Shown in pieces: positions 22,990 to 46,400 of a stretch of DNA of 64,000 nt; the first letter of the stretch is position 1, and each line of letters begins with the position of its first letter. The position numbers were made by a program, and so were the translations under genes. This DNA is from a virus, in IMG/VR virus record IMGVR_UViG_3300023184_000072, positions 1 through 64,000 of that record; one strand, given 5' to 3'. Under the pieces are notes generated by a model. The model was not told where the DNA came from, ran no database searches, and was given only the letters and a program-made list of their open reading frames with translations.

Positions 22990-25900
22990 TTATCTAATAC
23001 CTGATTGTGATTGCATTTTTATTTTAAGATCTTTAGCAAGTGAAGGATAGAACATTGGAAGCATTCCAGCAGCTTGATTAGTTATTGGATTAGTTTTCAT
23101 CCAATATTTGATAACACTAGTTTTTTCAACAAGATCATCATCTCCTGTAGCTAAACCATATGATTCTTTCAAAAACCCTTCCAATCCTTTTTCATAGTTA
23201 TTTAATAATCCCATTGCAGGGAATATTCCTTTTTCTGGTATACTTAATAAACTTCCAGGATTATAGAAGTATCCAATCTCATCTTTAAACTTATCTGTAG
23301 CTTTAAGAGCAAACTTCCATTGGTTCTTAACCATTGGATCTTCATCATCATCTGGAGCCATAGCTTTAAGTCCTAAGAATAAAGCCCATAATGCAGCATA
23401 GAATAATACATCTATTAACTGATTCTTAATGTTTGCTCTAACAAGATCAATGAATTCATCTTCTGTCATTTCAAGTTCTTTATCAGTATCAGCTTTATAA
23501 TCTGCTCTCTTTTTATCATATAACTGTCTAATGTAATCCATACCTTTATCATTACCCATCAATGAGTTTTTAAGATTGGCAATAGATCCTCTAAAGTCAT
23601 CTGATATAATTCTAGCAATCATTCTAGTTCTTCCCCATTCATAAGCATCTGATGCAGCATTATATTTAATGTTACCCATACGTACATCAACAAGTCTAGG
23701 AATCCAGTTCTTAAATACCATGAAAGAGTTTCCATATATATTTAAGTTCATTAGACGTTTGTTTTCTTCTGTCATAGATCCTAATGCATCAGCTGTAAAA
23801 CTTTGCACCTTTCTTCTTAATTCTAATACAGAATCAGATTTTCTATCTATACCAGGGATAACAAGTTTTCCATCTACTACATTACTAACATTCAACACTC
23901 CTTTTTCTTTGATAAGTTCTTCTACAGCTTTTTCATATTTTTCAGCTCTAGCATCTCTTTCTGATTGTGTTCCTTCATAGAAGTTTTTAAACTCATCTGT
24001 AGTTTTTAAATACTCTCTAACATTAACTACTTGGCCATCTAAAACAATTGTATTCTTTAAGAAAGAAAAGAAGTTTAATCTTTGTACAGCTAAATCTCCT
24101 TCTATCATCATTATCATTAGCCAATCTTGTAATGCTTGATCATCTAATTTATTTATAGATAGTTTTGTTGCAGCATGTTTATTATAACTTTCTGTAAATG
24201 GTATAAAGTAATCAAGAGCAGCAAGTATTTTTTGTTTATCTTCACCACCCATTTTATTACCTAACAACCATTGTTCTGTAGATACATAATCTTTTTTAGT
24301 AAAATATTTACCAGCATTAATAAATCCTTGTGCTGTACCTCCAAAGTAGTTAGAAGATGATGATAATATATTAAGACCAAGTGCTGTCACTTGGAATGTA
24401 TTATTCATCTGTGTAATAGCTTTGTTAATACTTATTTGTCTTCCGTCTAAGTTCTCTGGTAATAATTTGAATCCAAGAGTTTTATTAATTGTTGTTCCAA
24501 AGTTTCCAAACTTACCAAGTAATTGGTCATATGCTTCACTCTCTATATACTTCTGTTGGTATATAATTGCTTTAATCATATCCTCTATAAGTTTAGAGTT
24601 TTCATCATTATTGTTTATGTATATCAAATCACCATTAGCATCCTTTTGTGTTTTATTAAACATTGATGTAGCAATAGCTTGTTTATTTTTCTCAAGTCTC
24701 AATAATGCTAATGCTTGATCTTCTATACTTGATAGATATTGAAACTTAATAGCAAACTCATTATACATAGCCATTGTTTTGAAAAGATCTTCAGAATGTT
24801 GTCCTTCAAATTCTCTAGTTAAATATTTAGGAATCTTATTAACTACATTACCATTTATTGGATCATATTTTCCCATTCCCACTTCATCTTCATCAACAGA
24901 AATGTTTTTAAGAAATTGTTCTCCAATAGTTATTTTTCCACCAAATATAAGTTTTTCAGAAAGCCCTTTTCTTAACCAAGGAAGAAATGTTCTAGCTTGA
25001 CCATTTGATATATATCCTATAGCAGCGTATGCTTCATTTCTTTCTATAATGTAATTATAGAAATCAAGAGCAGGTTTGTTTAAATAGTTACCAGAAGCAT
25101 CTTTTTTATGTAACTCTTTCCATTCTTCAGATTGCCATTTATCTTTAGGAAATTGTTTAGCTTCTCTATATAATAACCAACCAAGAGAATTATCTGCAGT
25201 GATACTATATAGTGATGCCACTTTAGCTTTTTCTGCAGCTATATCATATTCATTTTGTTCTTGAGTACCAAGTCTAGGAAGATTATCTATTCTATTATAT
25301 TCTTCTTCTCTTTTATTCTCAAGATATTTTTTATAAGCTTCTACATCAATATTATCTTTGATCCATTTAACATCTTTAACATTCTTATCTGTAGCTTTTT
25401 TTAATTCATTATAGAATTCAGGTTTGTATTCATCAATTAATTCATTAGATCCTTTCTTCTTAATCATATTAAACATGTTCTTAGCTGATAATCCTTTAGC
25501 AGAAGCCCATGCTTGATATTCATTTTTCAATTTAGTTAATCTTGCCACTTCAGTTTGTGTATCCATACCAGCACGTCCAAAAGCAGCATTAGCTTTTTGA
25601 AATAATGCAGCCATTCCTTTTAACTGAATAGTAGATGTTGTACCTAACCATTTAGAAAATAATCCTTTTACAACTTTTTCTCCTTTTTCTGTACCACCAA
25701 TTTGTTCAACAGTGAACTCAGTGAATATATCAGATAGATTAGAATTTAGTTTTCTTGATTGATATGCTGTATCTCTAAGTTCTTCTTTTAATTCTTTATC
25801 TTCATCTGATAATTTTCCTTCAAATAAGAAGTCAAGATCTGTATCTAATGTTATATAATGTTGTAATGCATCTTCAGCAAGTCTTAATGATTTAACAAAG

Positions 25901-28056
25901 TCTGATATTTCTTGTTCAGAAAATCCTTCTTTACTTTTAAACTTTTCATTATATGTATTAATAAGACTTTGTATCTGTACATTTAATATTTTAGATTGGT
26001 ATAATAAAGGACCAATATCTTGTTTCATTTGCAATTGTCTAATTGCAGAATAAAGAGCATTCAATTGTTCAGCTTTATTTAATCTTTCTGATGGTAATGC
26101 TTTCTGTTCAGATAGCTTTGCATATATGTCATTTAGTTTATCTAAAAGAACATTTATCTTCTTAGTTGCTTCTGTATCATTTTCAATAATAACTTTCTCA
26201 CCAGCTACACCAACAGGAATTAAATAGTCTTGTTTAATGTTTTTAATATTAACATCTCCTATTTCTATTTGCAATAGTTTAGGAAGCACCTTTGTTTTTG
26301 GATTTGCTTCAGAATAAACTGCTCTGATAGGAATCATTCTAGTTTGTCCAAAGTCTTTTATATCTACACCATAATTATCTTTGATGATAGTTTTATATTG
26401 TTTCATCTGTCTATCCCAAGAAGCAACATTGTACCAAGGAACATCTTGATATCTTTGTGTATCAAGTCCAATAAACTTCCAGTCAAGAATATTAACCTTT
26501 CCTTCAGGAGTGACCGCTAAGAAATCCACTGTACCAGCAACACTTCTTTTAGGATCATATATTGTCATCTCTGACATAAACACTGTATCTTTATCAAATG
26601 ATTCAAGACGTGATCTAAGATTATCTCTTAGTAGCTCATAGATAGTGTTATCATTTGGATCAATGAATGATACATGATTATCATTTAATACAGCAGCATC
26701 CATCTCATCACTACTTTTTCTTTTACCATTCTCATCTGTAAACAAACTAAATGCATGCTCAAAGTCTTTGTGACCTGCAGTACCCTTATCAGCTTTTAAT
26801 GTATTGATTGCTTTCTTGTATTCAGAATCAGTTAGTGCATCTTGTGCACGTATTTCATCATACCAAGTTTTAATAATATTACTAACTCTATTTTTTATTT
26901 CTTTACCATCAATAAAATACTTTTCCTCTTCACCACCAAGTTCATTCTTAACAGCTTTCTTTTCAATTCTACTAGCCACTTCTTTAATACCATTAACAAC
27001 TTTTTGTTGTTTAGATAATTGGAAGAACATTTCTCCTGCATTCTCTCTAATATCTTCAACTGTACCTATTGCTTCACCTCTAATAATTTTCATAGCAGCC
27101 ATATCAAAGCCACTCTTAGTAAATAAGTTTTTTAAATAATTAACAATCTGTTCCCACCATCCTTCAGCATTTGCAATGCGTTCTGGTTTCTCTGTATTGT
27201 TCTCATTATTATTAATGATAGTTTCAACTAACACCTTAGCAATAGCTTCTTCTTTAAGTTTGATTACATTTGGTTTACCATCTATTTGATAAGCAGGATT
27301 ATTTCCATATGATTCAAATACCTCATTCATTATAGCATAACTATTAATTTCACTCATCAACTTTTTATACAAAGCTGGATTAGTTTGTTTAATAATAGCA
27401 ACAGCAAAGTGCATAGCTTCTTCAGGAAGAGCTGTTGCTTCTTTACCATCTATCACTTGAATAAGTTTTTGTGTAAGTAGTGCAACAGCATTAGCATCTT
27501 GCTTAATACCATTCACTACAATATTATCCATTGATTTTACATCTACACCAATGTTCTTAAGAAAGTCTTTTATTAGAGATAAAGTTTGCGGAGAAGCAGA
27601 TGTTGGTATAGCTTCTTCTTCTTTTTGAAACATTAAATCTTGTTCTTTATATCCTTGACCAAATGCATTTTTATATTGTTCATAATCAAAAGTTTTACCT
27701 GTTTTAGTAAAACCATTTTGTAAAAGAGCAGTAAGAGAAATATCAAAAATTGGATGACTGTCTATTTCTTCATCTAATGTTCCATCAGGATTTAAATTAT
27801 ATACAGATTCTATTTGAACAGGATCTAAATTATAAAATGGAATTTGATCAGCAGTTGAAATTGCTTCATATTGTGTATCATAAGATTCTTCTGAAAGAGC
27901 TTCCTGATTTAAAAACTGAGAACCTACACGATTAGAATCATGAACCATATATTCAACTCCATCATATTCTATAATCTCACCTTGTTTAGGAATATATTTT
28001 TCAGCAAATGCTTCTTCAGTCATTTGTTGATTATTATATGTTATTATACAACTCAT
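22990..28056 (-). CDS. Giant virion protein with RecB-like nuclease domain and variant zincin
   Basis: A 1688-residue protein. A PD-(D/E)XK nuclease of the RecB type spans about 420-560: GTAGHKDFEHAF with H429, E497 in MSEMTIYDP, AGTVDFLAV with D511, LDWKF with D525 and K527, and QMKQY (Q550 to Y554). All core motifs are present. Nearer the N-terminus, LPEEAMHFAVAII (210-222) with a later KEE (268-270) looks like a zincin helix whose first His is Glu. The rest is long helical and charged. Its ATG overlaps the stop of the 4222-residue gene (ATGA). It is probably carried in the virion and ejected; the nuclease could act on host or phage DNA. Confidence 0.75.
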   Translation of the reverse strand: MSCIITYNNQQMTEEAFAEKYIPKQGEIIEYDGVEYMVHDSNRVGSQFLNQEALSEESYDTQYEAISTADQIPFYNLDPVQIESVYNLNPDGTLDEEIDSHPIFDISLTALLQNGFTKTGKTFDYEQYKNAFGQGYKEQDLMFQKEEEAIPTSASPQTLSLIKDFLKNIGVDVKSMDNIVVNGIKQDANAVALLTQKLIQVIDGKEATALPEEAMHFAVAIIKQTNPALYKKLMSEINSYAIMNEVFESYGNNPAYQIDGKPNVIKLKEEAIAKVLVETIINNNENNTEKPERIANAEGWWEQIVNYLKNLFTKSGFDMAAMKIIRGEAIGTVEDIRENAGEMFFQLSKQQKVVNGIKEVASRIEKKAVKNELGGEEEKYFIDGKEIKNRVSNIIKTWYDEIRAQDALTDSEYKKAINTLKADKGTAGHKDFEHAFSLFTDENGKRKSSDEMDAAVLNDNHVSFIDPNDNTIYELLRDNLRSRLESFDKDTVFMSEMTIYDPKRSVAGTVDFLAVTPEGKVNILDWKFIGLDTQRYQDVPWYNVASWDRQMKQYKTIIKDNYGVDIKDFGQTRMIPIRAVYSEANPKTKVLPKLLQIEIGDVNIKNIKQDYLIPVGVAGEKVIIENDTEATKKINVLLDKLNDIYAKLSEQKALPSERLNKAEQLNALYSAIRQLQMKQDIGPLLYQSKILNVQIQSLINTYNEKFKSKEGFSEQEISDFVKSLRLAEDALQHYITLDTDLDFLFEGKLSDEDKELKEELRDTAYQSRKLNSNLSDIFTEFTVEQIGGTEKGEKVVKGLFSKWLGTTSTIQLKGMAALFQKANAAFGRAGMDTQTEVARLTKLKNEYQAWASAKGLSAKNMFNMIKKKGSNELIDEYKPEFYNELKKATDKNVKDVKWIKDNIDVEAYKKYLENKREEEYNRIDNLPRLGTQEQNEYDIAAEKAKVASLYSITADNSLGWLLYREAKQFPKDKWQSEEWKELHKKDASGNYLNKPALDFYNYIIERNEAYAAIGYISNGQARTFLPWLRKGLSEKLIFGGKITIGEQFLKNISVDEDEVGMGKYDPINGNVVNKIPKYLTREFEGQHSEDLFKTMAMYNEFAIKFQYLSSIEDQALALLRLEKNKQAIATSMFNKTQKDANGDLIYINNNDENSKLIEDMIKAIIYQQKYIESEAYDQLLGKFGNFGTTINKTLGFKLLPENLDGRQISINKAITQMNNTFQVTALGLNILSSSSNYFGGTAQGFINAGKYFTKKDYVSTEQWLLGNKMGGEDKQKILAALDYFIPFTESYNKHAATKLSINKLDDQALQDWLMIMMIEGDLAVQRLNFFSFLKNTIVLDGQVVNVREYLKTTDEFKNFYEGTQSERDARAEKYEKAVEELIKEKGVLNVSNVVDGKLVIPGIDRKSDSVLELRRKVQSFTADALGSMTEENKRLMNLNIYGNSFMVFKNWIPRLVDVRMGNIKYNAASDAYEWGRTRMIARIISDDFRGSIANLKNSLMGNDKGMDYIRQLYDKKRADYKADTDKELEMTEDEFIDLVRANIKNQLIDVLFYAALWALFLGLKAMAPDDDEDPMVKNQWKFALKATDKFKDEIGYFYNPGSLLSIPEKGIFPAMGLLNNYEKGLEGFLKESYGLATGDDDLVEKTSVIKYWMKTNPITNQAAGMLPMFYPSLAKDLKIKMQSQSGIR

Positions 28057-31000
28057 GATTTACAATTTTTATCTATTATGTTATTTTCTTTAAGTGCATT
28101 TACAATATCTGTTGTATTAGATTTTGTAAGTATTTCTGTTGGTAAAGATACAACTTCTTCTTGAATTTCACCACCATAAAAGCTAACAATATCTGCATCA
28201 TTTAACTCTCTTGTTGTTTTCAATGTACCATTATCAATTACAGAAGGTCTGAAGTCTGTGTAGTTCTCTGTAGCTCTATTACCATCCCCATAAAGATTTA
28301 CTAGTTTGTATACAGATTGTGGAAATCCTTTTTTATCTAGTATTCTTAATGGTTCTCCTGTAGATAAAAACACTCTCTTATATCCAAGTACATCATTTAA
28401 AGAGTAGTCTCCTTTTTTCTTTCTAGCAGCATAGTTAGCACCAGTAACAGTGTTACCAGTTAGTACATCAACTCTCACACCACTTTTCAATTTCACCACT
28501 CTAGGTACAGCAACATAGTCACTATTCATAGCTTTTTGATTATACTTATCTCCAATCACTAACACTTGTCTATCTATTGATTGAAGATTCATTGAATCAA
28601 TCTTTGGAAAAGAAGGAGAGTAATAACCAGTAGTGCTAGGAAGTCCTAGTATCTCAGCAGCATAATCTACACTCTTAGGTTTAAAGAATGGTGTAACTCT
28701 AGGCATAATCAATGCATCATTAAAATTATTTCTTTGGAACATTCCATCAGCAAATGCTTTTAATGTTTCATCAGAAGAAATAGAATTAACAACAGGAGCC
28801 ACTATAGTAGAATAATCTTCTATAGGAATAATGTTCTTAATAGATATAGCTGATTGATAACTTCCTTGTAGAATAGATAGAGCAATTAAATGTCTATATA
28901 ACACTTTTGTGTCAGCATTATAATCTCTAAGTTCTCTCATCATATCTGTATAGAGATCTTCATCATATGCATCTTTGATGTTAGCTCTAAGCTCTACACT
29001 CTTAGCTCCATTCTCTCTTTCAGAAGGAACAACTTGTAAGTCTTTTAGTATTTGTAAATCAGGATATTTTTGTTTTGCTATCTCTAATCTATTAGCAACA
29101 GATGTTTTTGCATTAACAAGAAGATTTTCTGTTCTACTATTAATACCAGTTTTAGTTTGTATAATGTAATCTAAGAATGCCATTTTAGCTTTGTTAGATA
29201 TCTTATTGAAGTTATCAATACTAAGGTATTTATTCTTAGCATAAGTTTTCATTATATCTTCTGTAATGATTCTAAGATTGTCTTGCTCTAATTTGAATAT
29301 AGCTCCCATTGCTTGCATGGATGCAGAAAGAAGCTTAGCTTGATTTCCAAGGAATGTATTATCAAGAATTTCTTTTGCAGAAGAAATAATGTTTATATCA
29401 TTAGCTTTCTGCGTTTGTAATTCTTTTCTTGCAAACATATCTCCAGATCCAAATCTACTTGTATCATAGTTTGTAGCTTGTGTGAAATCAAAATTAAATT
29501 CAGCCATCTTGGCATATTTCAAGAACTCTTTGAGAATAGCTTGTTGTTCACCATTCTCTTTTGTATTAAATTTACTAGCGGCATATTTAGATATATTTCC
29601 TTTTAATCCATCTACATTTATATTAGCATTATCAATTTCTTCTTGTGTTGAAGGAAACAATGATTTAGCATAATTAATATTATCTTCATAGAAAAGATTA
29701 GAAGAATTATTAGCATTTACAATTCTTAAATATTCTGAAATGATTGGTTGATTCAAAAAGTATATAGATTGTTCTCCTGCACCAATATTCTCTAAGAACA
29801 TGAATGTTCCAATAACAAGATTTGATTGAATGATTCTTGTAATAAAGTCATCCTTAGCTACATCCACTACAGCTGTTGCATATCCAGAAAGTCTATTAGA
29901 GATTAATTGATTAGTTCCATCAGCAGTTCTTGTTCCACCTAAAGATATTCTATCTACACCATTCACCTTTGTAGTGTTATGTTTCAATACAATACTTCCA
30001 TCACCTAATAATTCTTGGTCTTCTTTAGATAAACCATCAAACTTAGCAGGATCAATATAAGCTTGTATCTTTTGTCTTAATGAAAGATTTGTAATATTTA
30101 CAGCTACAACACCAACCCATCTTTTACCCATAAGAAATGAGTTTCTCAAATTGGTCATGTAGTTTCTATTAAGAATTCTATTTGGAATTTTGTTCTCATC
30201 AATTCCTCTTAACTTATCTAATTCTCCAGCAGCATCTTTTAATCCAGCATCATCTACAGGAGATACAAGTCTTTCAAAGTTTTCAGGAAGCGTGATAAGT
30301 TTTTCAAGACTATCATAGTATTCATTCTCAAGAGCTTTCTTATACATATCTTTTACATACTCAATACGCAATTCAGCTTGTAAGTTTTTATCTGTTAACT
30401 TATTAAGATCTTTCTCAATCAATTCTCTGAACTCATATGGGTTTTCATATTGTTCTTCTTTAGCTTTGATATAATCTCCATAGATATTAAGTAGTCCTTT
30501 TGGATCTTCTAATCCATAAACAACAATATCTAATGCTTCTATAAGATCAGCTTTCTTCATTTGTTTAACACCAAGAGTATCATCAAACACTTTACCATAG
30601 AAGTCTTTTGTATTCTGTTCATCACCTTGTAATCTAACAAGTTTAATATTACCTGTTCTATCTACATACACAGATTTAAGGTACATGTTCAACTTATCAA
30701 TATCAAAATCCGATCCAGCTTTAGTAGTAATCTCTGAAGGTACTACAACTGTTGCTCCCATATATTGTGGAAGGAATCCTTTCACTCTAAACACCTCAGC
30801 AGAAGAAAGAGCTTGTGTAGGAATTCTAAATCCAATACCAGAAAGAATTGATCTTCCTTCTTCTGTACCATTTAAATATTTCAATAACTCGTTATCTGTT
30901 TTAAATTTGTTTTTGAATTTATCTTTAAACCAATGAGGAAGTAACACTTCACAATATGGTTGTTCTTTAGTATAGAATTTAAGACTCTCATCTGTAAGCA

Positions 31001-34000
31001 TTACACCAGCTTTTTCTTCATCAGTTAATGTTTCATACTTCTCTTTAGTTATCTTCTCCCATATGCCTTCCTTGTTCTTCATAACAATACTTCTACCTTT
31101 TGTAAAAGACTCAAGCATTGTTGCAGGCATTTGTACATGTGCTCCTCCATTCATTTTAGGAGAAACAATTGCTTTATCAATCATTGAGTAAACAATACTT
31201 CTAATCTGTACATAAGAAGGAGAAGCTTCAAATGGAATCATAAACTGATTCTCATCATTAAGTTTGATTGTTTGTTTTGTATTAGTAGAAACTTCTCTTC
31301 TCATCATCTCTCTCATTAATGTTTCAGATACACTTTTACCATCTTTCATTACAAATCCATTACCAAGATCTTCTATACCTAATCTGTTAAGAAGTTCATT
31401 GTATGCATTTTGATGCATTGCATTAAGAATGTCTGTATTACGTTTATATTCTTCTGCAGCTCTAGGACTTGTTGGAATACCATTATCAAATAAATCTATA
31501 CTTGCAATCTTAGTAATCTGAGAACCTCTAGTTTGTGATTTGTTATCACTACTAGCTGTCTCCACTTGAATACCATAAGCTTTCCAAGGAACTTGTACAA
31601 TAGATTCATCAGAGAAAGCTTCAGTGTTAAATGAACCATCTCCATTGTAAAGACTATGTAACTCTTGTGCTCCCACCTTTCTACCTGATTCAACAATAGC
31701 ATAACCTATATTTTGATTCTTCATTTGAACATATAGCTTCTCAAGGTTAGTTCCTTTCACCATACTATAGTAGATAGGCACTTGAGAGAACTTATCTAAT
31801 ATAAGATCAAAATTGTTTTTATTAAACTTGTTTCCAGATACAATAGGTTTTAATATCTCTGTTGTATATTTAGGACGTGGAGTTTCCATAAGCTTAACAT
31901 CATGTGCTCTTAAAGCTTCACTAGTATATTCATATCCAGGAAGATTTTGTCTTGTAAAAGCCATTTCCCATTGGAACCATTTTTCTTCTGGTCCTTGTAA
32001 ATCCCATTGTCCATTCTTAAGTTTAATCTCTCTGTGTGTTGTATCCATTAACCATGAAACAGCATCTGCCTCATTTGTTTTTGAATATAATGAATTAATA
32101 GCAGAAAGACTACCTGCAGTGATAACATCTTTTACAGTGATAGTATTAGTATGAGATTTATGTAAGTGATATCCAGGATCATTCTCTGTTAACTTAATAC
32201 CATCAGCATTGTTTATATTATTATTCAAATATGTATTATATTCAGCACTATCAAATGTTGTTCTTCTTGGAGATAGAAAAGATTTAATACGTTTAGTTTC
32301 ATCTAATGCTCCTCCTTTTTTAACAGCAAATTGATATGGATCTCCAAATAATATTTTGTGATATTCTATGTTAGCAATAATATAATTAACATTAGCATAT
32401 GTTATAATATGATTTATATCATCAGCAGATAAAGAATTTTTCTTTAATGATTCAGCTTTAAGGAAGTTATCATCAAGATCTTGGTAAGCATATGTATCTT
32501 TTCCTACTGGATTAATTTTATCATTTGCTTTAAGAACATTTGTTGTGTCTACAACCATAGTATCAATAAATTCTTTTACAGAGTTATTAATATCAGATAT
32601 GTTATCATTTACATATGCTGTGATTTCTTCAAGAGTGCGACCATCTTCAATCATTTCATTGATTGCTTCTAAATTCTTAGGTGCAAGAATATCTTTAAAG
32701 AATCTAAGTTGTTTAGGTCTATTTACTATTTCATCTATTTCTTCAGCTAGATCAGATAGTTTTTTTCTATCTTCTTCTGTTTTATTTTTCTTAGTAAATA
32801 GAGCAGCAAACTCTTTATTAAGTTGTTCAATTTTTTGTAGATTACCAACATTATTTAACTTCTCTCTATTTGTATAATCTAGAGCTAAATTAATGTCATC
32901 CATTAAATATCCTTTGAATATAGAATTAACATCTGTATAAGAGTTTCTTGCTATAGAATCAAATGAAACATTGTTACCAATATTCATCATCCATTCTGTA
33001 GATCCATCTGCAGGAATAAGGATGTAATATTTACCATTAAGGTTTTGATTAATTTCCATTGTAAATCTATCACCTATTGTTAATTTAGATGTAGAAGTAC
33101 CTTTATCATCATCTTGATTTTCTTCTCCTTGTATAACAGAAACTTTGAAATCTTTTATTTTGTTTCCATCCTTATCATAGAACAATCCACCTTTTTTCAA
33201 GACTTGACTACCTGTAGAGAACACATCATTTAATTCAGGTCTTGATTGTTTTAATTGATCAATAGTTGCTGATTCATTAAATTCATTCTCAAATACAGAT
33301 GGTGTATTGTTTTCAGAGAAAGCACCAATACGTTGTCCCTCTACACCAAAGTATGTACTCTCTTGTGAAGGATTGTTCACTTTATTATATAGTTCAGCTA
33401 ATGTAGATAATGGCCCACCAATATCTAATGTTTTACCAGAGATGCTCATTAAATCATTGTTACTTCCAAAGTAACCATATATACTTTCTACTTGGTCAGT
33501 AAAACTATTTTTACCTACTTTATCACTAGGTTTAAGTTTAACATATGTATCATAATCAAACGTAACTCCAATAGCATTTAACATTGCTATCATGGCTTTA
33601 GGTTTTCTTATAGGCATATCTTTAAGTGCATCCTGATCTATTACATATTTATTATTTATATATTTAACAATAGTTCCATCTCCTTTAGCTAAAGTTTGAA
33701 TGTTTGTCATCCATTCTTTTTCTGTTTGTTGAGTAGCTGTAAATAAATTAGCAGCTCCTGTATGAACACTATCAGCAGATTTATATTGTATTAATGCATT
33801 TGGTTTTTGTCTAGCAAATGTTTGTATAAATTGAACAAATAATCTCCAGTCATTATCATTAAACTCACCAAATGGAACCACCTTATCTTTACCACCCACC
33901 TTTTGGAATACACTAACATAGTTAGAATCATCCTGTGCTAGGTTGAATAATTTATTTGTAAATGCACCAACACTAGATGTATTAGAAAGTTTATCTAATA

Positions 34001-37000
34001 ATGTAGAAAACACTCTACTAAAGTTTAAAAGTTTATATCCTTCAATCTCATTACCTTCAATAGTCATTTTAGAATACTTATTCTTAAGAGGAGTGCTTAA
34101 TGTAATAGCACTTTCTTGATTGCTAGGTTCTCTTTCAATCACTGTAGAACATAAAAACTTAACTGCAGGAGCAGAATTCTTCTTAGTATCTAATGTGAAT
34201 GGCTCAGCAGCATAATCATTTTTATTTGATTCTTCATTATTAATGCTTTGTACATCTTCATCATTAAAGTTGATACCTCTTGTACGCAATTGATCTCTTA
34301 CTTCTTGTTTAAGATCTTCCCATGTTTTATCACTTAGTAATTGTCTTCTACCTTCTTCAATAAGCATATCCTCAATCTTACCAAACATTTCTGTTCCAGT
34401 AATTCTTTCAGGATTAAATAAAAGACTCTTATCTCCTTCTCTAAATAATATACCAGCAGCTCTTGCTGTCATATCCTGTACAAAGTTATTAGCTTGTTGT
34501 GCAGTTAGCTGAGATACTCTACTATATTCAGAGAATGGATTATTATTTACAAAGTTTTTAAATCCTTCTACGTCTTGCTTACCACCTAGTATGTGAATTT
34601 GTTCTGGCTCAAATACTATATATTCTGAATCATTTCCATAATAATCCTCTACAATAATACCATTTCCTGAACCTTCAAATTTTTTTCTTAAGTCTCTAGC
34701 ATAACTCTCAACTGATTTAGGAGTCTCTCCTTCTATAGTTAAATCGTCTATTAAATTATTATGACTTTCAAAATCTATACGTGTGCTTATTTTTGGTATA
34801 TTAATTAAGTATGAGTTTGCTTTATAAAAATTACCTTCATAATCCTCTCCATAATCCCTAGCATCTTTTTCGTTTTTAGCAAAAAAACCACCAAGATATG
34901 CAGAAATATTAGTTATAAATTTTTCTTTTCTTGTATTTGGTAATATTTTCTCACCAGAAGGATTAGCATGATAAACAATATCTTTAACTTGACTATCAGG
35001 AAATATAGAATCAATATATTGAGAATATTGTTGAGGTGTTCCTATATTAGTTAACTCTGGACTAGAGTCAAATATTTCTTGCACACCTTCTTTAACTACA
35101 GGAGTAGCTAATGTTCTTTCTTTAAACTTACCTGATTCAATTGCTTTAAAGAATTCTTCTTTCAAAGATGGTTTAACTACAAATGATTTAAAGAAATCCA
35201 TTATAGCTTTAAAGAATCTACGAACTTTTTCTCCTAATGATCTAGCAGGTAATTTACCTTTTCTAAACTCAGAGAAGTCATCCATTATTCTTTCTTCAGC
35301 TTGAAGATCTGTAGCATCTGCATAAGCAATCTTTTTACGAGAAGCTCTATCAGTAAATGTACCAGACTTAGATTTGAACTCATCTAGTAAAGCTCTTTGC
35401 TCTTCAGGAGATAACATACCTTTAAATATAGCATGGCCTATCTCATGATACTCTGTACCTCTTAATCCTCCACGAACAAACTTAGCTACACCATCTTCAA
35501 ATGCACCCCAAGCTTTTTCTCCATCATATGTATCAATAAGATTTTCTAACACTTCAAAAGGAATGTTAGGAACATTTTCTGCATGCCATTCTTTGAACAA
35601 TTCTAATTCAGCCTCTGTCATTCTTTCATTCTCATCAAGCCCCACCTTTCTGAAATCACCACCTGGTTTTTTCTGAACAGGAACAACTGGTTTTTCTGTT
35701 GGAGTTTCTAAAGCAGCTTGTTCTGCATCATATTTAGCATTGATTTCATTAAATAAATTTATAAATTTAGTTGCTATTCCTTCATTGAATTGATGTATTC
35801 TATCTATTACAGAATAACTATTTGCTTTTAGTAAATCTAAACTTTGTTCAAAACTTATAGATGCAGCAGGACTTCCTTTTTTAAAATTAGTTAATTTGTC
35901 TTTTAATTCTTCTTGTCTTCTTTTTTCTATATCAGCTTTCTTATCATCTATATCAGAAACTTCTTCTACTACTTCTTCAGCTACAGGAGCTTCTTGTGCA
36001 GGAGCTGCTGCTTTTAACTTATCTAACTCTGCTGAAATTCTAAGAGCTAAATAATCTGTAATATATTTCTCTTCTTCTTCTAAAGGAATAGAAGCATCAA
36101 ATCTATTAGCTGCTTTTAGTGCTCCTTTAATCTTTTCAAATGTAGGTTTATCTGCAAAAAGTTTTGCAGTTGTTTCATTACTCTCTACCTCTACATTAAA
36201 GTTACTATCAGCATCTTCTATTGCTGTAAACTGTACAGGACCAGCATCAATAATATATGGATTTGATGTTGTACCATCTATTACATATTCTCCTAATGTA
36301 GGAACTTCCACACCAGCAGGTGCTTCTTCTTTAGCTTTTTGTACAGGTGTAATTATTTGTACATTAAAACTATCTGGTTCTGCTATTGTAGAATATCTTT
36401 GTTTAAAAGAATAAGGTCTTCCTGGAATAGGTTTAGCTATAGATGTAGACAAAGGAGTATCACCAGAAGGTCTAGCTTTACCACTAGGATATGTTTTAGC
36501 CAATAAGAATGTTTGGTAGTTTGTCCATTTACTAGATGTAAACTGACCATCTTTATTAATGTACCACTCTTCAAATGGAGCTTGTGCAAAATCAGTTAAT
36601 GTTTTATTATTAACGCTTATAAATGCTTTCTCAGTTAAGTGTTCTTTTATATCTGCTTCATGTTGAGCTATGTCTGATAAAGGATAACTCTTATTACCAA
36701 GTTTCAAACTCATTGATTCAATATCAATACGTATTTGATTAGGAGAAGTTGTATCATCTTTTGATTTCCAATATAATACATTCTGTAAGAATGTTGTAAA
36801 CTGTCTATTTAAAGTTACTCTTTGTCCTGTGTTAGCTTGTTCTACAGCAGTGTTTGCAAGTCTTTTAATCACTTCATATGTACCAGCTGCTTCTCTATCA
36901 TTAAATGTTCTATTGTTTAAGAATGCAATAGTATCTCCATATTGTAATACAGGAACTCCAGGAGGTGTTTTTTGTATCTCACCTTTACTATTAACAATAG

Positions 37001-40000
37001 TTCCTGTTGTAGGAATAACAATTAAGTTTGCTTGGTTAGCAATAAGAGACTCATCAATTAATACATCACCAACATGGTTTTTTTCTTTAAGACCATTAGC
37101 ATCTTTTAATTCAATAGGAATACCATTTGATACAGAAAATTCAAATGTAGGAAACTCTGTAGCTCCTGCATTGAATAATGTTTTTCTATATTCACCCCAA
37201 GCTTTTGAGTAAGCTTCAGCTTCAGCTTGTTGGTCTTTTCTATATCTAGGATCACCTGATCTATTAAGTAAAGATGTTGTACGCATTGTTTGGAATATAA
37301 TCTTATTAAGATCAGTTCCTGGTTCACCCACTTTACCAATTCTCTCACCATTTTTGTTTACAAAGAATAAACCATCTACATCTTGTTCTACAAATACTTG
37401 TGCAACCCATCCAGAGTTAACATCATTAACTCCTTCAATAGAATCAATACTAGTAGAAGGATCTTTCTCATAAGACATCTGAACTATTCCATCAAGTTGT
37501 AATCCTTCAGCTTGTTTAGATGTAATTAATATAGATCTTAGTTTAGATCTATTAGGCATACCTGCAACATTGTTTAAAAACTCTCTTGAGTTTGTAATAA
37601 ATGGAGCAACTGCTACTGTAGGATTATCTTCTTCTGATGCTGATGAACTAGAAAGAAATAATATTGAAGCATCTGGAAGACGTGATTCTTTAACATTCTC
37701 TGCTGCTTCTGAATTAACTGAAGCAATAGTTCCTGACTTATGTTCAAGTTCTGTTTGTTCTTTAGCTATGTCTTCTTTATTCTTTTGTAATTTCTCTTGG
37801 TCTGTCTCAAGTTTTTTATATCCTGTTAATCTTTTTGGATCAATATTTAATATATCTCCATTAACATCTTCCACCTTAACTGTACCATTTTCATTAACAT
37901 TTAAAACTTTCACCTTAGATAAGTTAGTACTCTCATCAGTTAAGTCTTTAGCTTCTTCTTTAGCTTGTTCCTCAGTTTTATGAAAAGATATAGTTCCATC
38001 AGGAGCTGTCACTTGGTATCTACCATCAGCAATCTTTTTAATAGAAGCTTTCTTTGTAGCTCTCACTTCATAATCTCTACCTACTTCTAATTTTTCTTTT
38101 TGCTTATCTTTATTAACAAATGTAGGTTCAACTACATCTTTAGCATTTTCAGTTACAACTTCTTCTTTAGCAATATCTTCTGCTTGTTTGAAATATTTAT
38201 TAAATCCTTTTTCTGTAGCTAATTCATCAAATGCAACAGCAGCTTTTTTCTTATGTTCATTTAATTCATTTATACCAGCTCCATAATTATATAATTCTGT
38301 TGAATTTTCAAGACCTACAACATCATCTTTTGTACCATCTTGATTGTTTAATTCAAAGTTTAATAATGAATGAAATGTTTTTAAATCTAATTGTCCATTA
38401 TTTAAAGCTATTGTAATTTTTTCAGATGCTGTACGTAAAGCTTTAACTTGTTCTCTAGTAGCTTTTTTATCAGCAGGTGTAGTGTAATCAGTAATTGTAT
38501 TCATTAACTGATTAGCTTGCTCCTCATATGATTTAGATAGTTCTTGTAATGATTCTTTATTAGTAACATTAGCTAATGTACTATTAGTTACAAGAGGATT
38601 TACTGAAGATACTTTTTCTTGTATAGAATTAAGTCTTTCATTTACATCATCTTTTATTGTTCCATAATATGTAATGTCTTCTTTCCAATCTTCAAAAGTA
38701 GAATGGTTAAAAGCTTCAAGAGATTCTTCACCTGGTTTTGGATCTACAATATATCTAAATGGATTTTTAAATGTATTGTTGACAGCATTAGTTGTTTCTT
38801 TTATAGAATTAGCTTTGTTTATTAATGAGTCTACATACTCATTCACTGTATTCTTATTAGATGCATTGAAATCCATTCCAAAAGATTTTTGAAAATCTTC
38901 TTTAGTAAGATCTTTCAACATATTCAATTGTTCTATTGTAACATCATGCATCCCTGATGGAATACGTGATTGTACAAAATTAAAGAACATGTCATGTTTA
39001 AGATTTTTATATTTAAATACATTTCCAGTTGCAGCAGCATCTTTCATTTCTTTTGCTATAGCTGAAGAACTTAATGTATTATCATATTTATTAGAAAGAA
39101 TACCTGTCATTCCATATCTATTAAGAATGTTTATAGAAGAATTTAATCTTTTATCTTGACCGTTTCCTTTTTTATAATCATAAAATTGTTTAGCTCCTCC
39201 AGTTAATACAGCAGTAAGTCCACCAATAATCATATTATCAATACCTTCTGTTGTATTAAATTGTTGAGAAAGTCCATAAGTGGTTGAGCTCATTGCTTCA
39301 CTTAACCATTTACCATTCTCATAGTTTTTTTTATTATTTGGATCTTTATACTTTCTTGTATAATAATCATATGTTCCTTTCTCAGCAGCAAACTGTCCAC
39401 CTTCTTGATATACACCTTCAGATAATACATCAGCTAATTTAGGTTTAACAAAATCCCAAACTTTATTACCAACACCTGTAACAGCTTTCTTTTCAAATGT
39501 ATCAAGACTTCCTTCTTTAAGAGTTATTTTACCAGCTTCTTCAAGTTTTTTTGTAAGACTTCCTTGAATTCCTTTTTCTGCTGTTGTAAAAGATTTAAAT
39601 AAGTTATCAAACTGTATAGCATTTGATACAGTTAAAAGAGCCATGTTAATACCAAATCTAGTATTCATTGCATTAGTAGCATAGTCTTCTATTTCTTTAG
39701 ATGCTTCTGCTGTTAACTCTTCACCTGGATGATCTAATTCATATTGTTTTAATAATTCTTCTTTAACTTGTCTATATCCATCTCTACCTTCAACACCAGC
39801 TTCTGTCATAGAAGAACCTATAAGTCCTGCACCATATCTAAAACTATTTGTTAGTTTTGTATAAGCAGCTCCTTGTGCAAGTTTTTCAGCAGATAATAAA
39901 CTTTTTCCAACAACACCAGCTTCATTAGCTATGTCTAGCACTTTATCTACTTCATTAGATCCAGCAAATATTTTGTTTAAATATAAAGCAGCTTTACCTA

Positions 40001-40721
40001 TTTGTGCACCTATTAATGGAAGTTCTCCTATACCTTCTGTTATTGCTCCTATAGCAAGATCTTGTGCAGCTGCTCCTAACATAGCTCCTCCCATAAACCC
40101 AAGATTTTTAATAACAGATTCTCCCCAGAAGTTTGCTGATCCAGCAAATCCAGGAATCATTGCTAAATGAGGATGTTCTTTTTCATATCTTGTGTAATAG
40201 TTTGGAAAAACATTTTCCATGTTTTTTATCCAATTATCTATACTACCTTCATATCCATTTGGATCTCCAGATAGTTTTGAAAAATCTGCATTCTTTGCAG
40301 CTATATAAGTATTAGGAACATTAGAAAGCGATTGTGCAAATGTACCTACAGCTGTTACTCCTGCTTTAACAAGACTATGTCCTAGTTGAGAGAAAGCATT
40401 TTGTTGTAATCCATATACATTCTCAAGATCTTTATCTCTTTGAAACAATGGATACTTTTGATTTTCAATTAACTCTCCTCTTGTAACTACACCCATAGGT
40501 GAACTAAATGTAGGAGTTTTAATTGGAGCATTTGCAAGACTTGAAATTTCTTCAATACTGTTTCCTTTTCTACTAATTGTATTAGCTCCTAAATCTCCTC
40601 CAATAACAGGATTAAGACTTACATCAACTTCTCTTGTAGCAAGAGATGTTAGATCTGGTCTTCTTGGTGCTTCACCTCTATTAGAAACATTATCTATAAG
40701 TTCATTGTCAAAAATTGGCAT
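28053..40721 (-). CDS. Giant virion protein: zincin protease, ADP-ribosyltransferase-like and RNA polymerase domains
   Basis: A 4222-residue protein. The N-terminal region has Gly/Ala-rich helices (LGFMGGAMLGAAAQDLAIGA). A zincin follows: EYHEIGHAIF with H1759, E1760, H1763 and the third ligand at E1809/E1810. The next domain (about 1905-2045) has VYHANPSG with H1918, GGFFAKNEKDARDYG and VFEPEQIHIL with E2040/Q2041, as in ADP-ribosyltransferases of polyvalent phage proteins. Near the C-terminus, GSDFDIDKLN (D3338, D3340, D3342) is the metal-binding motif of two-barrel RNA polymerases, in the form used by crAss-like virion RNA polymerases (phi14:2 gp66 type). GYAIVESGRKVGA lies in the expected partner barrel. 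It would enter the host with the DNA and start early transcription. Confidence 0.8.
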   Translation of the reverse strand: MPIFDNELIDNVSNRGEAPRRPDLTSLATREVDVSLNPVIGGDLGANTISRKGNSIEEISSLANAPIKTPTFSSPMGVVTRGELIENQKYPLFQRDKDLENVYGLQQNAFSQLGHSLVKAGVTAVGTFAQSLSNVPNTYIAAKNADFSKLSGDPNGYEGSIDNWIKNMENVFPNYYTRYEKEHPHLAMIPGFAGSANFWGESVIKNLGFMGGAMLGAAAQDLAIGAITEGIGELPLIGAQIGKAALYLNKIFAGSNEVDKVLDIANEAGVVGKSLLSAEKLAQGAAYTKLTNSFRYGAGLIGSSMTEAGVEGRDGYRQVKEELLKQYELDHPGEELTAEASKEIEDYATNAMNTRFGINMALLTVSNAIQFDNLFKSFTTAEKGIQGSLTKKLEEAGKITLKEGSLDTFEKKAVTGVGNKVWDFVKPKLADVLSEGVYQEGGQFAAEKGTYDYYTRKYKDPNNKKNYENGKWLSEAMSSTTYGLSQQFNTTEGIDNMIIGGLTAVLTGGAKQFYDYKKGNGQDKRLNSSINILNRYGMTGILSNKYDNTLSSSAIAKEMKDAAATGNVFKYKNLKHDMFFNFVQSRIPSGMHDVTIEQLNMLKDLTKEDFQKSFGMDFNASNKNTVNEYVDSLINKANSIKETTNAVNNTFKNPFRYIVDPKPGEESLEAFNHSTFEDWKEDITYYGTIKDDVNERLNSIQEKVSSVNPLVTNSTLANVTNKESLQELSKSYEEQANQLMNTITDYTTPADKKATREQVKALRTASEKITIALNNGQLDLKTFHSLLNFELNNQDGTKDDVVGLENSTELYNYGAGINELNEHKKKAAVAFDELATEKGFNKYFKQAEDIAKEEVVTENAKDVVEPTFVNKDKQKEKLEVGRDYEVRATKKASIKKIADGRYQVTAPDGTISFHKTEEQAKEEAKDLTDESTNLSKVKVLNVNENGTVKVEDVNGDILNIDPKRLTGYKKLETDQEKLQKNKEDIAKEQTELEHKSGTIASVNSEAAENVKESRLPDASILFLSSSSASEEDNPTVAVAPFITNSREFLNNVAGMPNRSKLRSILITSKQAEGLQLDGIVQMSYEKDPSTSIDSIEGVNDVNSGWVAQVFVEQDVDGLFFVNKNGERIGKVGEPGTDLNKIIFQTMRTTSLLNRSGDPRYRKDQQAEAEAYSKAWGEYRKTLFNAGATEFPTFEFSVSNGIPIELKDANGLKEKNHVGDVLIDESLIANQANLIVIPTTGTIVNSKGEIQKTPPGVPVLQYGDTIAFLNNRTFNDREAAGTYEVIKRLANTAVEQANTGQRVTLNRQFTTFLQNVLYWKSKDDTTSPNQIRIDIESMSLKLGNKSYPLSDIAQHEADIKEHLTEKAFISVNNKTLTDFAQAPFEEWYINKDGQFTSSKWTNYQTFLLAKTYPSGKARPSGDTPLSTSIAKPIPGRPYSFKQRYSTIAEPDSFNVQIITPVQKAKEEAPAGVEVPTLGEYVIDGTTSNPYIIDAGPVQFTAIEDADSNFNVEVESNETTAKLFADKPTFEKIKGALKAANRFDASIPLEEEEKYITDYLALRISAELDKLKAAAPAQEAPVAEEVVEEVSDIDDKKADIEKRRQEELKDKLTNFKKGSPAASISFEQSLDLLKANSYSVIDRIHQFNEGIATKFINLFNEINAKYDAEQAALETPTEKPVVPVQKKPGGDFRKVGLDENERMTEAELELFKEWHAENVPNIPFEVLENLIDTYDGEKAWGAFEDGVAKFVRGGLRGTEYHEIGHAIFKGMLSPEEQRALLDEFKSKSGTFTDRASRKKIAYADATDLQAEERIMDDFSEFRKGKLPARSLGEKVRRFFKAIMDFFKSFVVKPSLKEEFFKAIESGKFKERTLATPVVKEGVQEIFDSSPELTNIGTPQQYSQYIDSIFPDSQVKDIVYHANPSGEKILPNTRKEKFITNISAYLGGFFAKNEKDARDYGEDYEGNFYKANSYLINIPKISTRIDFESHNNLIDDLTIEGETPKSVESYARDLRKKFEGSGNGIIVEDYYGNDSEYIVFEPEQIHILGGKQDVEGFKNFVNNNPFSEYSRVSQLTAQQANNFVQDMTARAAGILFREGDKSLLFNPERITGTEMFGKIEDMLIEEGRRQLLSDKTWEDLKQEVRDQLRTRGINFNDEDVQSINNEESNKNDYAAEPFTLDTKKNSAPAVKFLCSTVIEREPSNQESAITLSTPLKNKYSKMTIEGNEIEGYKLLNFSRVFSTLLDKLSNTSSVGAFTNKLFNLAQDDSNYVSVFQKVGGKDKVVPFGEFNDNDWRLFVQFIQTFARQKPNALIQYKSADSVHTGAANLFTATQQTEKEWMTNIQTLAKGDGTIVKYINNKYVIDQDALKDMPIRKPKAMIAMLNAIGVTFDYDTYVKLKPSDKVGKNSFTDQVESIYGYFGSNNDLMSISGKTLDIGGPLSTLAELYNKVNNPSQESTYFGVEGQRIGAFSENNTPSVFENEFNESATIDQLKQSRPELNDVFSTGSQVLKKGGLFYDKDGNKIKDFKVSVIQGEENQDDDKGTSTSKLTIGDRFTMEINQNLNGKYYILIPADGSTEWMMNIGNNVSFDSIARNSYTDVNSIFKGYLMDDINLALDYTNREKLNNVGNLQKIEQLNKEFAALFTKKNKTEEDRKKLSDLAEEIDEIVNRPKQLRFFKDILAPKNLEAINEMIEDGRTLEEITAYVNDNISDINNSVKEFIDTMVVDTTNVLKANDKINPVGKDTYAYQDLDDNFLKAESLKKNSLSADDINHIITYANVNYIIANIEYHKILFGDPYQFAVKKGGALDETKRIKSFLSPRRTTFDSAEYNTYLNNNINNADGIKLTENDPGYHLHKSHTNTITVKDVITAGSLSAINSLYSKTNEADAVSWLMDTTHREIKLKNGQWDLQGPEEKWFQWEMAFTRQNLPGYEYTSEALRAHDVKLMETPRPKYTTEILKPIVSGNKFNKNNFDLILDKFSQVPIYYSMVKGTNLEKLYVQMKNQNIGYAIVESGRKVGAQELHSLYNGDGSFNTEAFSDESIVQVPWKAYGIQVETASSDNKSQTRGSQITKIASIDLFDNGIPTSPRAAEEYKRNTDILNAMHQNAYNELLNRLGIEDLGNGFVMKDGKSVSETLMREMMRREVSTNTKQTIKLNDENQFMIPFEASPSYVQIRSIVYSMIDKAIVSPKMNGGAHVQMPATMLESFTKGRSIVMKNKEGIWEKITKEKYETLTDEEKAGVMLTDESLKFYTKEQPYCEVLLPHWFKDKFKNKFKTDNELLKYLNGTEEGRSILSGIGFRIPTQALSSAEVFRVKGFLPQYMGATVVVPSEITTKAGSDFDIDKLNMYLKSVYVDRTGNIKLVRLQGDEQNTKDFYGKVFDDTLGVKQMKKADLIEALDIVVYGLEDPKGLLNIYGDYIKAKEEQYENPYEFRELIEKDLNKLTDKNLQAELRIEYVKDMYKKALENEYYDSLEKLITLPENFERLVSPVDDAGLKDAAGELDKLRGIDENKIPNRILNRNYMTNLRNSFLMGKRWVGVVAVNITNLSLRQKIQAYIDPAKFDGLSKEDQELLGDGSIVLKHNTTKVNGVDRISLGGTRTADGTNQLISNRLSGYATAVVDVAKDDFITRIIQSNLVIGTFMFLENIGAGEQSIYFLNQPIISEYLRIVNANNSSNLFYEDNINYAKSLFPSTQEEIDNANINVDGLKGNISKYAASKFNTKENGEQQAILKEFLKYAKMAEFNFDFTQATNYDTSRFGSGDMFARKELQTQKANDINIISSAKEILDNTFLGNQAKLLSASMQAMGAIFKLEQDNLRIITEDIMKTYAKNKYLSIDNFNKISNKAKMAFLDYIIQTKTGINSRTENLLVNAKTSVANRLEIAKQKYPDLQILKDLQVVPSERENGAKSVELRANIKDAYDEDLYTDMMRELRDYNADTKVLYRHLIALSILQGSYQSAISIKNIIPIEDYSTIVAPVVNSISSDETLKAFADGMFQRNNFNDALIMPRVTPFFKPKSVDYAAEILGLPSTTGYYSPSFPKIDSMNLQSIDRQVLVIGDKYNQKAMNSDYVAVPRVVKLKSGVRVDVLTGNTVTGANYAARKKKGDYSLNDVLGYKRVFLSTGEPLRILDKKGFPQSVYKLVNLYGDGNRATENYTDFRPSVIDNGTLKTTRELNDADIVSFYGGEIQEEVVSLPTEILTKSNTTDIVNALKENNIIDKNCKS

Positions 40722-43400: not shown

Positions 43401-43433
43401 CTTTTATAGTTAATTAAAATAACTAAGAAAGTT
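43399..43433 (-). terminator. AT-rich hairpin at the 3' end of the 1349-residue gene
   Basis: On the - strand AACTTTCTTAGTTA pairs imperfectly with TAACTATAAAAGTT around a 7-base loop, starting at the stop codon of the upstream gene and running into the -33 element. A weak terminator or attenuator is possible. There is no clean T-run, only TTTGTATAT. Confidence 0.3.
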
Positions 43434-46400
43434 ATAGATTTTTAAAAGCTTTAACTATGTTACTATTTAAGTTTTTATTCTTAATAGTTTTTCCATCTCT
43501 AGCAGTACTCTTTTTTCCTTTAGAGTGTACACCTATAATATTTCCTTCAGAATCATATGAGAATTCTTTACCAGCTGCAAGTCCTTTACCTTTAGTACCA
43601 GATGCTACACCTTTTCCTGTTGTATCAAAATCTATATATCTAGGAAGTTTAATAATTCTACCATCAGGACCAAATGTATAATCTGGATGTTCAGCCATTC
43701 CAATATTATACTCCATGTTCTCTTTTTTGTTAGCAGCTTCTTTAGCATATAATGATGTTAATGCAGCTTCTGTAGTAGCTTTAGTATTAGATTTAGCTTG
43801 TGCTAGTTTATTAGCTGCATCCATATCTATTCCTAAGTTTCTAGCTCTATCTTGATTAACAGTGTTTATGTTATCATTATATACTCCTTGGTATCCTTGT
43901 TGGTTAATCTCAAATTCTTTAGAACCTATTTGATTCATAGCATCTGCTACACTAGCCATTATAGCTGATTGTGCTGCAGGATTATTTCCAGAATTCTTTA
44001 CAGCTTCTCTAGCTTGAGAAAGAACTGCATTTCTATCCTTATCTGCAGAATATTTATATGGGGTTTTTAACATAGAATACATATGATTTTCAGCTAATCC
44101 TTCAACTTGATTATTTGCAAGAGCATATAACTCAGGATTGATTTGATTACCTAATGGCATATTGAATGCAGGATACAATCCTCTAATTAAACTACTAGCT
44201 GCAGATGCCCAAGGAAATCCTTTCTTAGGAGTTTCTTCTATTGCTTCAAGTTCAGTAGCAGCTGGTTTAGTTGGTGTTGGAGTGATAGTTGGTGCTACTG
44301 CAGGTGTTGCATTTTTATCAATAATAGAATTTAATATTGTATGATAAGGTCCCACTTTTTTATCAGAAGCTAATTCATAAGCTTTAGCTATTTTTCCTGA
44401 CATAGTTTTTTCTTTATTTAAAACAGCTTTGACATCTTCTGCATCTTGTCCAGAATAGTTTTCAAGATCACTTATTAATTGTTTAGCTATTGTAGGATCA
44501 GAAAATGCTTTATCTCTTTTAGGTCCCCATTGTGTTTCATAATTTGAACCTTTAAAAATATCTCCTGCTGTATCTGGTGCATTATAATCTATTGAACCAG
44601 GAAGAGTTCCTTTTACTGCATATGTACCATCTTGAGCTTTTATTGTTTTACCATTTTTAGCAACTTGAGAAAGTTCTCCTTTAGCTAATGTATGACTCAC
44701 TTCTCCATTCTTAGCAAACTTCTCTTGAGAAACTTCTTTACCTAATAGGTTAGTTAAAAAATCAGTTGTTTGATGAATATGATCTTGGTAAGCAGCAAGA
44801 TTTTCTTTGTCTTTTGCTAGTTGTTTTAATTTCATATTAAGTCCTAGTGTTTGCACTTCTTTTGTTTTATCTCCTAATGCTCCTATTGCTGTATTAGATT
44901 TAGGAACATCACTTGTTATTTTTTCTAACTCACCTGTATATTTTTTTTCTTGAGGAACAATTATATTATTTACAACATGTTTAACTTTTTTGTTAGCATA
45001 TTTTTCAGGTAATTGGAATTGTTCTAACAAATCTTTATTAGTATTAAGATTACCATATACAACAGCACCATCATTTGTTATAGAAATAGGTTCATTAGTT
45101 TCTATTTCTACATCTGGTTCATCTCCCATGTCTCCACCATCTTTCATTATAGAAAGTCCTATACCTGTTCTTCCTTGTTCATCTTTTTGGAAATGAGAAT
45201 TACCATATGCATTATATGTAAGTCCTTCTCCTTCTGAATAAGGATTGTATGATACAGGTTTTACACCTTCCCCTCCAGGAAGATTTCCACCCCAATGAGT
45301 TTTTAATTCTCCACCATCAGCATAAGTTTCCATAGCTCTTTCACTTGGAGGAGTGTATTCTTTTAAATGTCCACCAGCTCTATATTTATGTGCATAGTCA
45401 GCAAAGTCTTCTGCAGTGTGATCACCAAACATTGCAATCACTTGAGGATTCCAATCATTACTAACCCAACCACCTTCTTTTCTAACACTTCCAAATTGTC
45501 CCATATTTTTCCACATAGAATTATCCATTATTCTTTGTTGTGTGTTAGCATTGCTTTGAGTTAATTTATTTATTTTTCCAGCATCACCAAATGCTTGATC
45601 AAGTCCTCCTCCTACTAATTGTAAAGCTAATCCTGCTCCTGGGAATGCCATATCTGCTAATGGAGCAAGTGCTCCTGCTGCTTGAAAACCAGCATTATTA
45701 TTATATCCAGCTCCTATTAAATTACTACCTAAACTATTGATAGGTCCCATTATATCCATTCCACCACCAGCTGCTCCTTCAAGATCTCCACCATCAGCAT
45801 ATTGTTTAACTTGATCAAGATCATCATATAATGTACCAGGAGCAAATGTATTAGAAATTTCTCCACCATCTTTATACATAACAAAGTTAGGAGTGAATGG
45901 TTGATTTAACATTCTAGGTGCAGCTTGTCCTAATTGTTTAGCTCCTTGTCCTAAATATCCTGCAGCTCTAGATCCTGCACCTTCTCCAATAGCAGTAGGA
46001 AATGCTTCATAAGAAACTTCAGGTAAACCTGATAATAATGTAGCAGCATTTAATGCAGCTTTAGGAGTAAGTTTTAATCCTTTCTTAATATGACTAAGGA
46101 TTCTTTGTTTATCTGTTTTGTTTGGATTATATCTATTAGCCATAACTTCTTTTCTGAATGCTTCAGAAGTTTCATCTTCTCTAGTTCCACTAGGATTAAG
46201 CACACTCTTAAAATCTCCAAATGCTTTACTAGGATGAGCCATGTAATATAAAGGTCTTTCTCCTAATAAATAATCATCATATTCTGCTTGAGATCTTTTA
46301 GCTTCTTCTTCTCTTTGTGTTTGATTTCTTTTATCAGTAGATAACATTGCATCACTACCCTTGTATTTAGGTTTACCTTTAAAGAAGTCTTCATAAGATT

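Follow-up and report, generated by a model that had tools for sequence, protein, structure and literature searches.

A predicted virion RNA polymerase of a crAss-like phage is fused to a zincin-like domain and carries an inserted ADP-ribosyltransferase-like module

Results

A fused RNA polymerase protein in a distant member of the Crassvirales

The window analyzed here is a stretch of 64,000 nucleotides (nt) of viral DNA, positions 1 to 64,000 of IMG/VR record IMGVR_UViG_3300023184_000072, a virus record of 86,304 bp. Our subject is the gene at 28053-40721, for which an earlier reading of the letters alone (the original prediction) had proposed a single virion protein combining zincin protease, ADP-ribosyltransferase (ART)-like and RNA polymerase (RNAP) domains. 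The 4222-residue open reading frame (ORF) is real. It reads from 40721 to 28053 on the minus strand as 4222 codons with zero internal stops, and was placed on that strand because the forward strand holds no ORF at 28053-40721. The parts of the protein, called the giant below, are as follows.

28053..40721, minus strand: giant fused virion RNA polymerase protein, 4222 amino acids (aa), corresponding to a crAss001 gp47-like part and a gp50-like part in a single chain
38973..40430, minus strand: N-terminal segment, residues ~98-583, homologous to crAss001 gp47 residues 83-607
35106..35654, minus strand: zincin-like domain, residues 1690-1872, with HEIGH at 1759-1763 and E1810, from conservation and an AF2 model
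34542..35105, minus strand: inserted ART module (ART-PolyVal/HYD2-type), residues 1873-2060, at variable site B, from Pfam, AF2 and Foldseek
29448..33191, minus strand: RNA polymerase core, residues 2511-3758, with the catalytic DFDID at 3338-3342 (30696-30710), from homology to 6vr4

Outside the window, the record has portal matches to crAss001 and phi14:2 (E=1.7e-32 and 5e-37) and a TerL match (E=2.6e-10); the window itself has an IHF match (E=6e-17) and weak matches to g074-type and gp44/g071-type proteins. Because of the portal, TerL and IHF matches, we assign the phage to the Crassvirales, at a distance from the phages of the annotated collection. For comparison we drew on about 70 distinct giants; the loci of relatives are labeled L0xx or L1xx.

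When crAss001 proteins were searched against the giant ORF with tblastn, gp47 matched twice (E=2e-17 and 3e-9), at residues ~98-583 and at 1734-1866 in the zincin region, and the polymerase gp50 matched at residues ~2879-3811 (E=6e-19). These two parts are separate genes in crAss001, and by homology the giant is a gp47-type, zincin-bearing cargo protein fused in one chain to a gp50-type polymerase. The RNAP assignment of the original prediction is strongly supported. A phmmer search matched residues 2511-3758 to PDB entry 6vr4, the phi14:2 gp66 polymerase (E=1.9e-18), a 37-row profile raised the match to E=1.4e-40 with DFDID aligned onto DFDID, and the catalytic motif reads DFD[IVF]D in 66/66 relatives. 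The double-psi barrel expected at D3338-D3342 is likewise supported through homology to the solved phi14:2 structure, which already answers the question of the barrel. Pfam, applied to the whole giant protein, returned a single weak ART match and neither a zincin nor an RNAP match.

All the motifs on which the original prediction was built are in the protein, with HEIGH at 1759-1763, EE at 1809-1810, VYHAN at 1916-1920 (H1918), VFEPEQI at 2036-2042 (E2040) and DFDID at 3338-3342. Judged by their alignment contexts, they exceed chance: DFDID falls within 1250 residues matched to 6vr4, the HExxH helix in a domain found across the order, and H1918 is conserved in its family.

In crAss001, gp47, gp49 and gp50 have been detected in virions by mass spectrometry (PMC10172136), and the annotation of phi14:2 g065-g067 is drawn from tandem mass spectrometry (MS/MS). 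For Crassvirales relatives, packaging of the polymerase-block proteins has been described, an ejection model proposed, and early transcription attributed to the virion polymerase (PMC10172136; PMC7886860). By homology, the giant chain is probably packaged in the virion as well.

The giant shares with phi14:2 gp66 (6vr4) and crAss001 gp50 a homologous core, the DFDID motif, the gene block and a place beside cargo proteins. In phi14:2 and crAss001, however, the parts lie on separate genes, whereas the giant joins the polymerase to the gp47-type zincin protein in one chain and has an ART as well. We considered the zincin-RNAP fusion as a novelty and dropped it, since chains with a zincin HExxH and DFDID already exist in cr4_1 (YP_010112556.1, 4491 aa), cr118_1 (YP_010110531.1, 4946 aa) and cr130_1 (YP_010113266.1, 5801 aa; read with code 15). 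The cr118_1 chain ends in an SF1 helicase, and that of cr130_1 has its zincin HEAFH at 2642 and DFDID at 4229, followed by NADAR and DUF7831. In cr130_1 and cr131_1 the polymerase-block protein with NADAR and DUF7831 is followed by a protein that starts with ART-PolyVal (E=8e-24 and 0.0028). These fused giants of the Suoliviridae (cr4_1, cr118_1, cr130_1) thus have the same zincin and RNAP chain, but never an ART between the two domains. Their records give them no names beyond hypothetical, exonuclease V or DprA-like; by sequence comparison, the fusion is a known, if unnamed, state of the Crassvirales. The 'DprA-like' label that RefSeq gives to the 5801-aa polymerase protein (NC_055901.1 13777-31182; L187) covers a small part of a chain with zincin, RNAP, NADAR and DUF7831.

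Yutin et al. 2021, in what they say of the transcription block, describe 'large, multidomain proteins', one of which has a PDDEXK domain (PMC7886860), and part of the domain plan may already be marked in published figures.

Within the giants, the N-terminal segment (residues 100-500; 39222-40424) occurs among relatives in two divergent versions, at ~60% or ~26% identity. Which version is present tracks polymerase-part identity poorly, and this suggests exchange of the N-terminus.

A zincin-like domain conserved across the order

The zincin-like domain spans 183 residues, is present across the Crassvirales and is strongly conserved among close relatives. Residues 1735-1870 match the zincin-like domain of polymerase-block proteins in other crAss-like phages; the domain with HExxH was recognized in crAss001, cr85_1, cr108_1, cr118_1 and Dulem virus 41, and HExxH is likewise present in cr4_1 and cr130_1. 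In the window the motif (HEIGH, 1759-1763) is accompanied by the downstream glutamate E1810, which all rows of the 12-row alignment A2 share. The AF2 model of the region has pLDDT mostly above 90 and the order helix, strands, HExxH helix and following helix. The zincin-like domain of the original prediction has good support. Foldseek with the whole 412-aa zincin and ART model, which was built from an alignment of zincin rows (the ART was modeled separately), gave no significant match; profile searches of the zincin and of the ART against PDB sequences returned nothing meaningful, and PHROGs and NCBIfam gave zero matches in the zincin-ART region.

In the clade of the window, the second histidine is replaced by glutamate (HExxE) in 48-50 of ~70 sequences, and HExxH is kept by the window, L001/L011 and ~17 others. 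Across relatives, HExxH and insert length showed no significant association. Catalysis by the window's zincin is plausible from its motif; a general requirement for it in the clade is ruled out. The second zinc ligand (window 35433-35447) toggles between His and Glu, with HExxH in ~20 relatives and HExxE in ~50, while the first His, the Glu and E1810 stay.

An ART module inserted in frame after the zincin

Residues 1873-2060 match Pfam ART-PolyVal (PF18760) at E=0.0019, short of the curated cut-off; related ARTs from the same gene block reach E=2.1e-5 in L016 and E=8e-24 in cr130_1, the latter exceeding the cut-off. An alignment of 61 related modules gave an AF2 model of the module with pLDDT 78.6 and pTM 0.72. 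Of the top 50 Foldseek matches in the PDB, 49 are ADP-ribosyltransferases by name, although individually weak (best E=0.013, with low TM-scores); the one other entry, 6kyf, is labeled solely as an anti-CRISPR protein. Against viral models, 18 matches have E<1e-3 (best 1.9e-6) and include proteins named ART-PolyVal, and a lower-ranked match is to a Roseobacter phage virion RNAP (vRNAP). There is thus good fold evidence, from the predicted structure, that the module has an ART fold, as the original prediction proposed. A tblastn search with the ART against 50,697 phage records found no close relative; cr130_1 nonetheless has a divergent one. A viral scan with the ART alignment yielded 162 related stretches, 80 of which were kept. 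Among the ART-positive loci that were fetched, the ART lies on the same ORF as a crass-type RNAP in 32 and on that of the downstream protein in 16, counts that include near-duplicate contigs.

The giants of the nearest relatives, as aligned orthologues, have no counterpart of residues 1873-2060. Compared with L011, the window is 95.6% identical in DNA over the 639 nt before the junction and 98.3% over the 419 nt beyond it; at the junction, 563 nt in the window stand instead of 11 nt, a net gain of 184 codons in frame. The GC content of the insert is similar and low (0.285 against 0.308). In L016, a 37%-identical ART is found at the N-terminus of the downstream gene, that is, in a different protein. 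On these alignments, the ART module is a recently inserted cassette. As only one of the closest relatives has the insertion, it might also be read as an assembly chimera of two metagenomic phages; we regard this as highly improbable, given that the replacement is exact and in frame, that base composition is similarly low, that L049 has a second, divergent ART at the identical site, and that many contigs have related ARTs at other places in this gene block.

The ART family has an H-[YF]-D triad, complete in 46/61 relatives, a pattern in keeping with the HYD2 clade that Iyer et al. 2017 described (PMC5512222). In the window the triad reads H1918-F1946-N2020. The H1918 position is His in 56/61 relatives, the position of N2020 is Asp in 57/61, and Phe stands in place of Tyr in about a third. 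E2040, which the original prediction had taken for the active-site acid, was dropped as a catalytic residue after this comparison, the near-invariant acid of the family being the Asp aligned with N2020. E2033 could serve as a substitute acid, and the window ART may be impaired, weak or inactive. Activity of both extra domains as host-modifying enzymes is unsupported, with the family Asp missing and Phe in place of Tyr in the ART, and with HExxE in the zincin of most close relatives.

The H-F-N triad, the frequency of HExxE and the lack of a link between HExxH and insert length would all fit a decayed, inactive ART cassette beside a zincin that is a structural domain, its catalysis lost in much of the clade. 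We consider this possible but doubtful: both the length and the fold of the module are intact, it sits in frame between highly similar flanks, Phe for Tyr is common in the family, and the zincin domain itself is strongly conserved.

Exchange sites in the polymerase proteins of relatives

The site of the ART, site B, measures 12-14 aa in 67/70 giants, and has inserts solely in the window, L049 and L062. Comparison of the relatives revealed three further variable positions in the giant and the protein downstream.

35655..36020, minus strand: variable site A, which separates the 'mid' segment from the zincin; relatives have 30-614 aa here, some with NADAR or an unnamed domain
28056..28151, minus strand: variable site C, the C-terminal tail past residue ~4190, 12-1163 aa in relatives
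22990..28056, minus strand: downstream polymerase-block protein P0002, 1688 aa, whose N-terminus forms variable site D and whose residues 393-527 give an exonuclease-like match

Site D varies from 1 to 1238 aa and holds an ART in L016, L079, L084 and L097. By Pfam or homology, NADAR is found at sites A and C and ART at sites B and D; site C in addition holds AlkB-like 2OG oxygenase, SF1 helicase, SLOG, DUF7831 and an unnamed domain. On the polymerase tree, the scatter of these labels calls for a minimum of 5 changes in NADAR, 4 in ART at site D and 2 in ART at site B. Published gut Crassvirales have this set of families as well. Several effector families thus recur, as far as their homologies tell, at different sites, with labels scattered over the tree. 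Several unrelated enzymatic domains accompany a zincin on one phage polypeptide and are exchanged between members, and the likening of the giant to polyvalent proteins in the original prediction was right.

Inserts at domain borders and protein ends have the look of spacers, and might act inside the virion or during assembly (as spacers, packaging signals or in processing) and not on the host. This is improbable, in that the recognizable inserts are enzymes (NADAR, AlkB-like oxygenase, SLOG, helicase, ART) and not structural folds.

An unnamed domain of ~120 residues occurs at all four sites: A in L044 (residues 117-238), B in L062, D in L016, and C in L029/L030/L035/L049/L050/L053/L093. The copies tested had no Pfam or PHROGs match, and the domain is a candidate new effector family. 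L042 and L077, with near-identical polymerases and site A lengths of 229 and 46 aa, are a natural pair for cassette gain or loss. Large inserts of no recognizable family occupy site A in L001:8972-10003 (344 aa) and L037:5987-7732 (582 aa), where other phages have NADAR.

A probable carrier for exchangeable effector domains

We think it probable that the giant, a virion RNA polymerase joined to a zincin-bearing gp47-type cargo protein, is an ejected carrier for exchangeable effector domains. The polymerase, zincin and ART homologies, the recent in-frame ART insertion and the effector families at four junctions in relatives are the observations on which this reading is built. In this reading the head would contain the chain, and ejection through the tail would carry it out before the DNA or together with it; early transcription would then be started by the polymerase while, in the first minutes, the carried enzyme would act on host molecules or defense signals. 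The zincin may proteolytically release carried parts. All three of NADAR, SLOG and ART have been linked to conflicts over NAD/ADP-ribose (PMC9503650), and their shared NAD/ADP-ribose chemistry points to counter-defense.

Several points weigh against the carrier reading. The chain is known here from sequence, and its packaging is predicted by homology to relatives. The triad of the window ART is H-F-N against the H-Y/F-D of the family. phi14:2, with a working polymerase, has no HExxH in g066 or g067, and processing by the zincin is not a general requirement because most relatives have HExxE. At least one named domain was found in 25/74 loci, and the remaining inserts could be linkers.

T4 Alt, to which the original prediction had compared the giant, resembles the window ART in role only, as an injected ADP-ribosyltransferase; it is a separate protein of a different ART family, without a polymerase fusion. 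In a program of the T4 Alt kind, the ART would ADP-ribosylate translation factors or the RNA polymerase of the host, and the phage polymerase would thereby take over from host transcription. The ART does sit on the polymerase chain, and Iyer et al. 2017 proposed the same role for N4-like RNAP-ART fusions (PMC5512222). We nevertheless hold such a program to be unlikely here, with the catalytic Asp changed to Asn in the window and the ART missing from nearly all close relatives, where unrelated domains take its place; because it is so often absent or replaced, the ART is not a fixed part of a transcription switch.

The carrier reading extends beyond the window. We lean, with some reserve, toward the view that polymerase proteins across the order are delivery platforms whose fixed exchange sites flank the zincin and lie at gene ends, that counter-defense cassettes (ART, NADAR, SLOG, AlkB-like, helicase and unnamed domains) are swapped into these sites in frame between cargo genes, and that the platforms arose independently of N4-type fusions. 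The N4-type virion RNAP is a single-subunit, T7-like enzyme. It is unrelated to the two-barrel crass enzyme, and the architecture would be convergent, two unrelated virion polymerases having reached the same plan. Fusions of N4-like vRNAPs to a zincin and an ART have been described (Iyer et al. 2017, PMC5512222); in these polyvalent proteins, for example in Roseovarius Plymouth podovirus 1, a zincin and a HYD2-type ART likewise lie on the virion RNAP chain. crAss phages are unmentioned both there and in a 2022 survey of NAD/ADP-ribose systems (PMC9503650).

Two elements go beyond the original prediction, both drawn from comparison with relatives: the ART was recently acquired as a cassette, and effector domains are exchanged at several sites of the polymerase protein. 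Crassvirales are among the most abundant known phages. The comparison gives their giant ejected proteins a readable plan, a conserved core of polymerase and zincin with exchange sites for recognizable enzymes of NAD/ADP-ribose and nucleic-acid chemistry. With this plan, a role of early-injected counter-defense enzymes in host range differences becomes testable, and the plan offers a route to new counter-defense domains by reading what occupies the same sites.

Neighboring genes

The gene upstream of the giant encodes a candidate cargo protein.

40724..43333, minus strand: upstream 869-aa protein, putative counterpart of a crAss001 gp45-type ejection (cargo) protein, assigned by position only

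For the 1349-aa protein that adjoins the cargo block (window 43432-47481), neither the annotated phage collection nor the PHROGs families gave a match. On the downstream side, residues 393-527 of P0002 match an exonuclease-like family (phrog_298, E=3e-5), in agreement with the PDDEXK domain reported for crAss transcription-block proteins.
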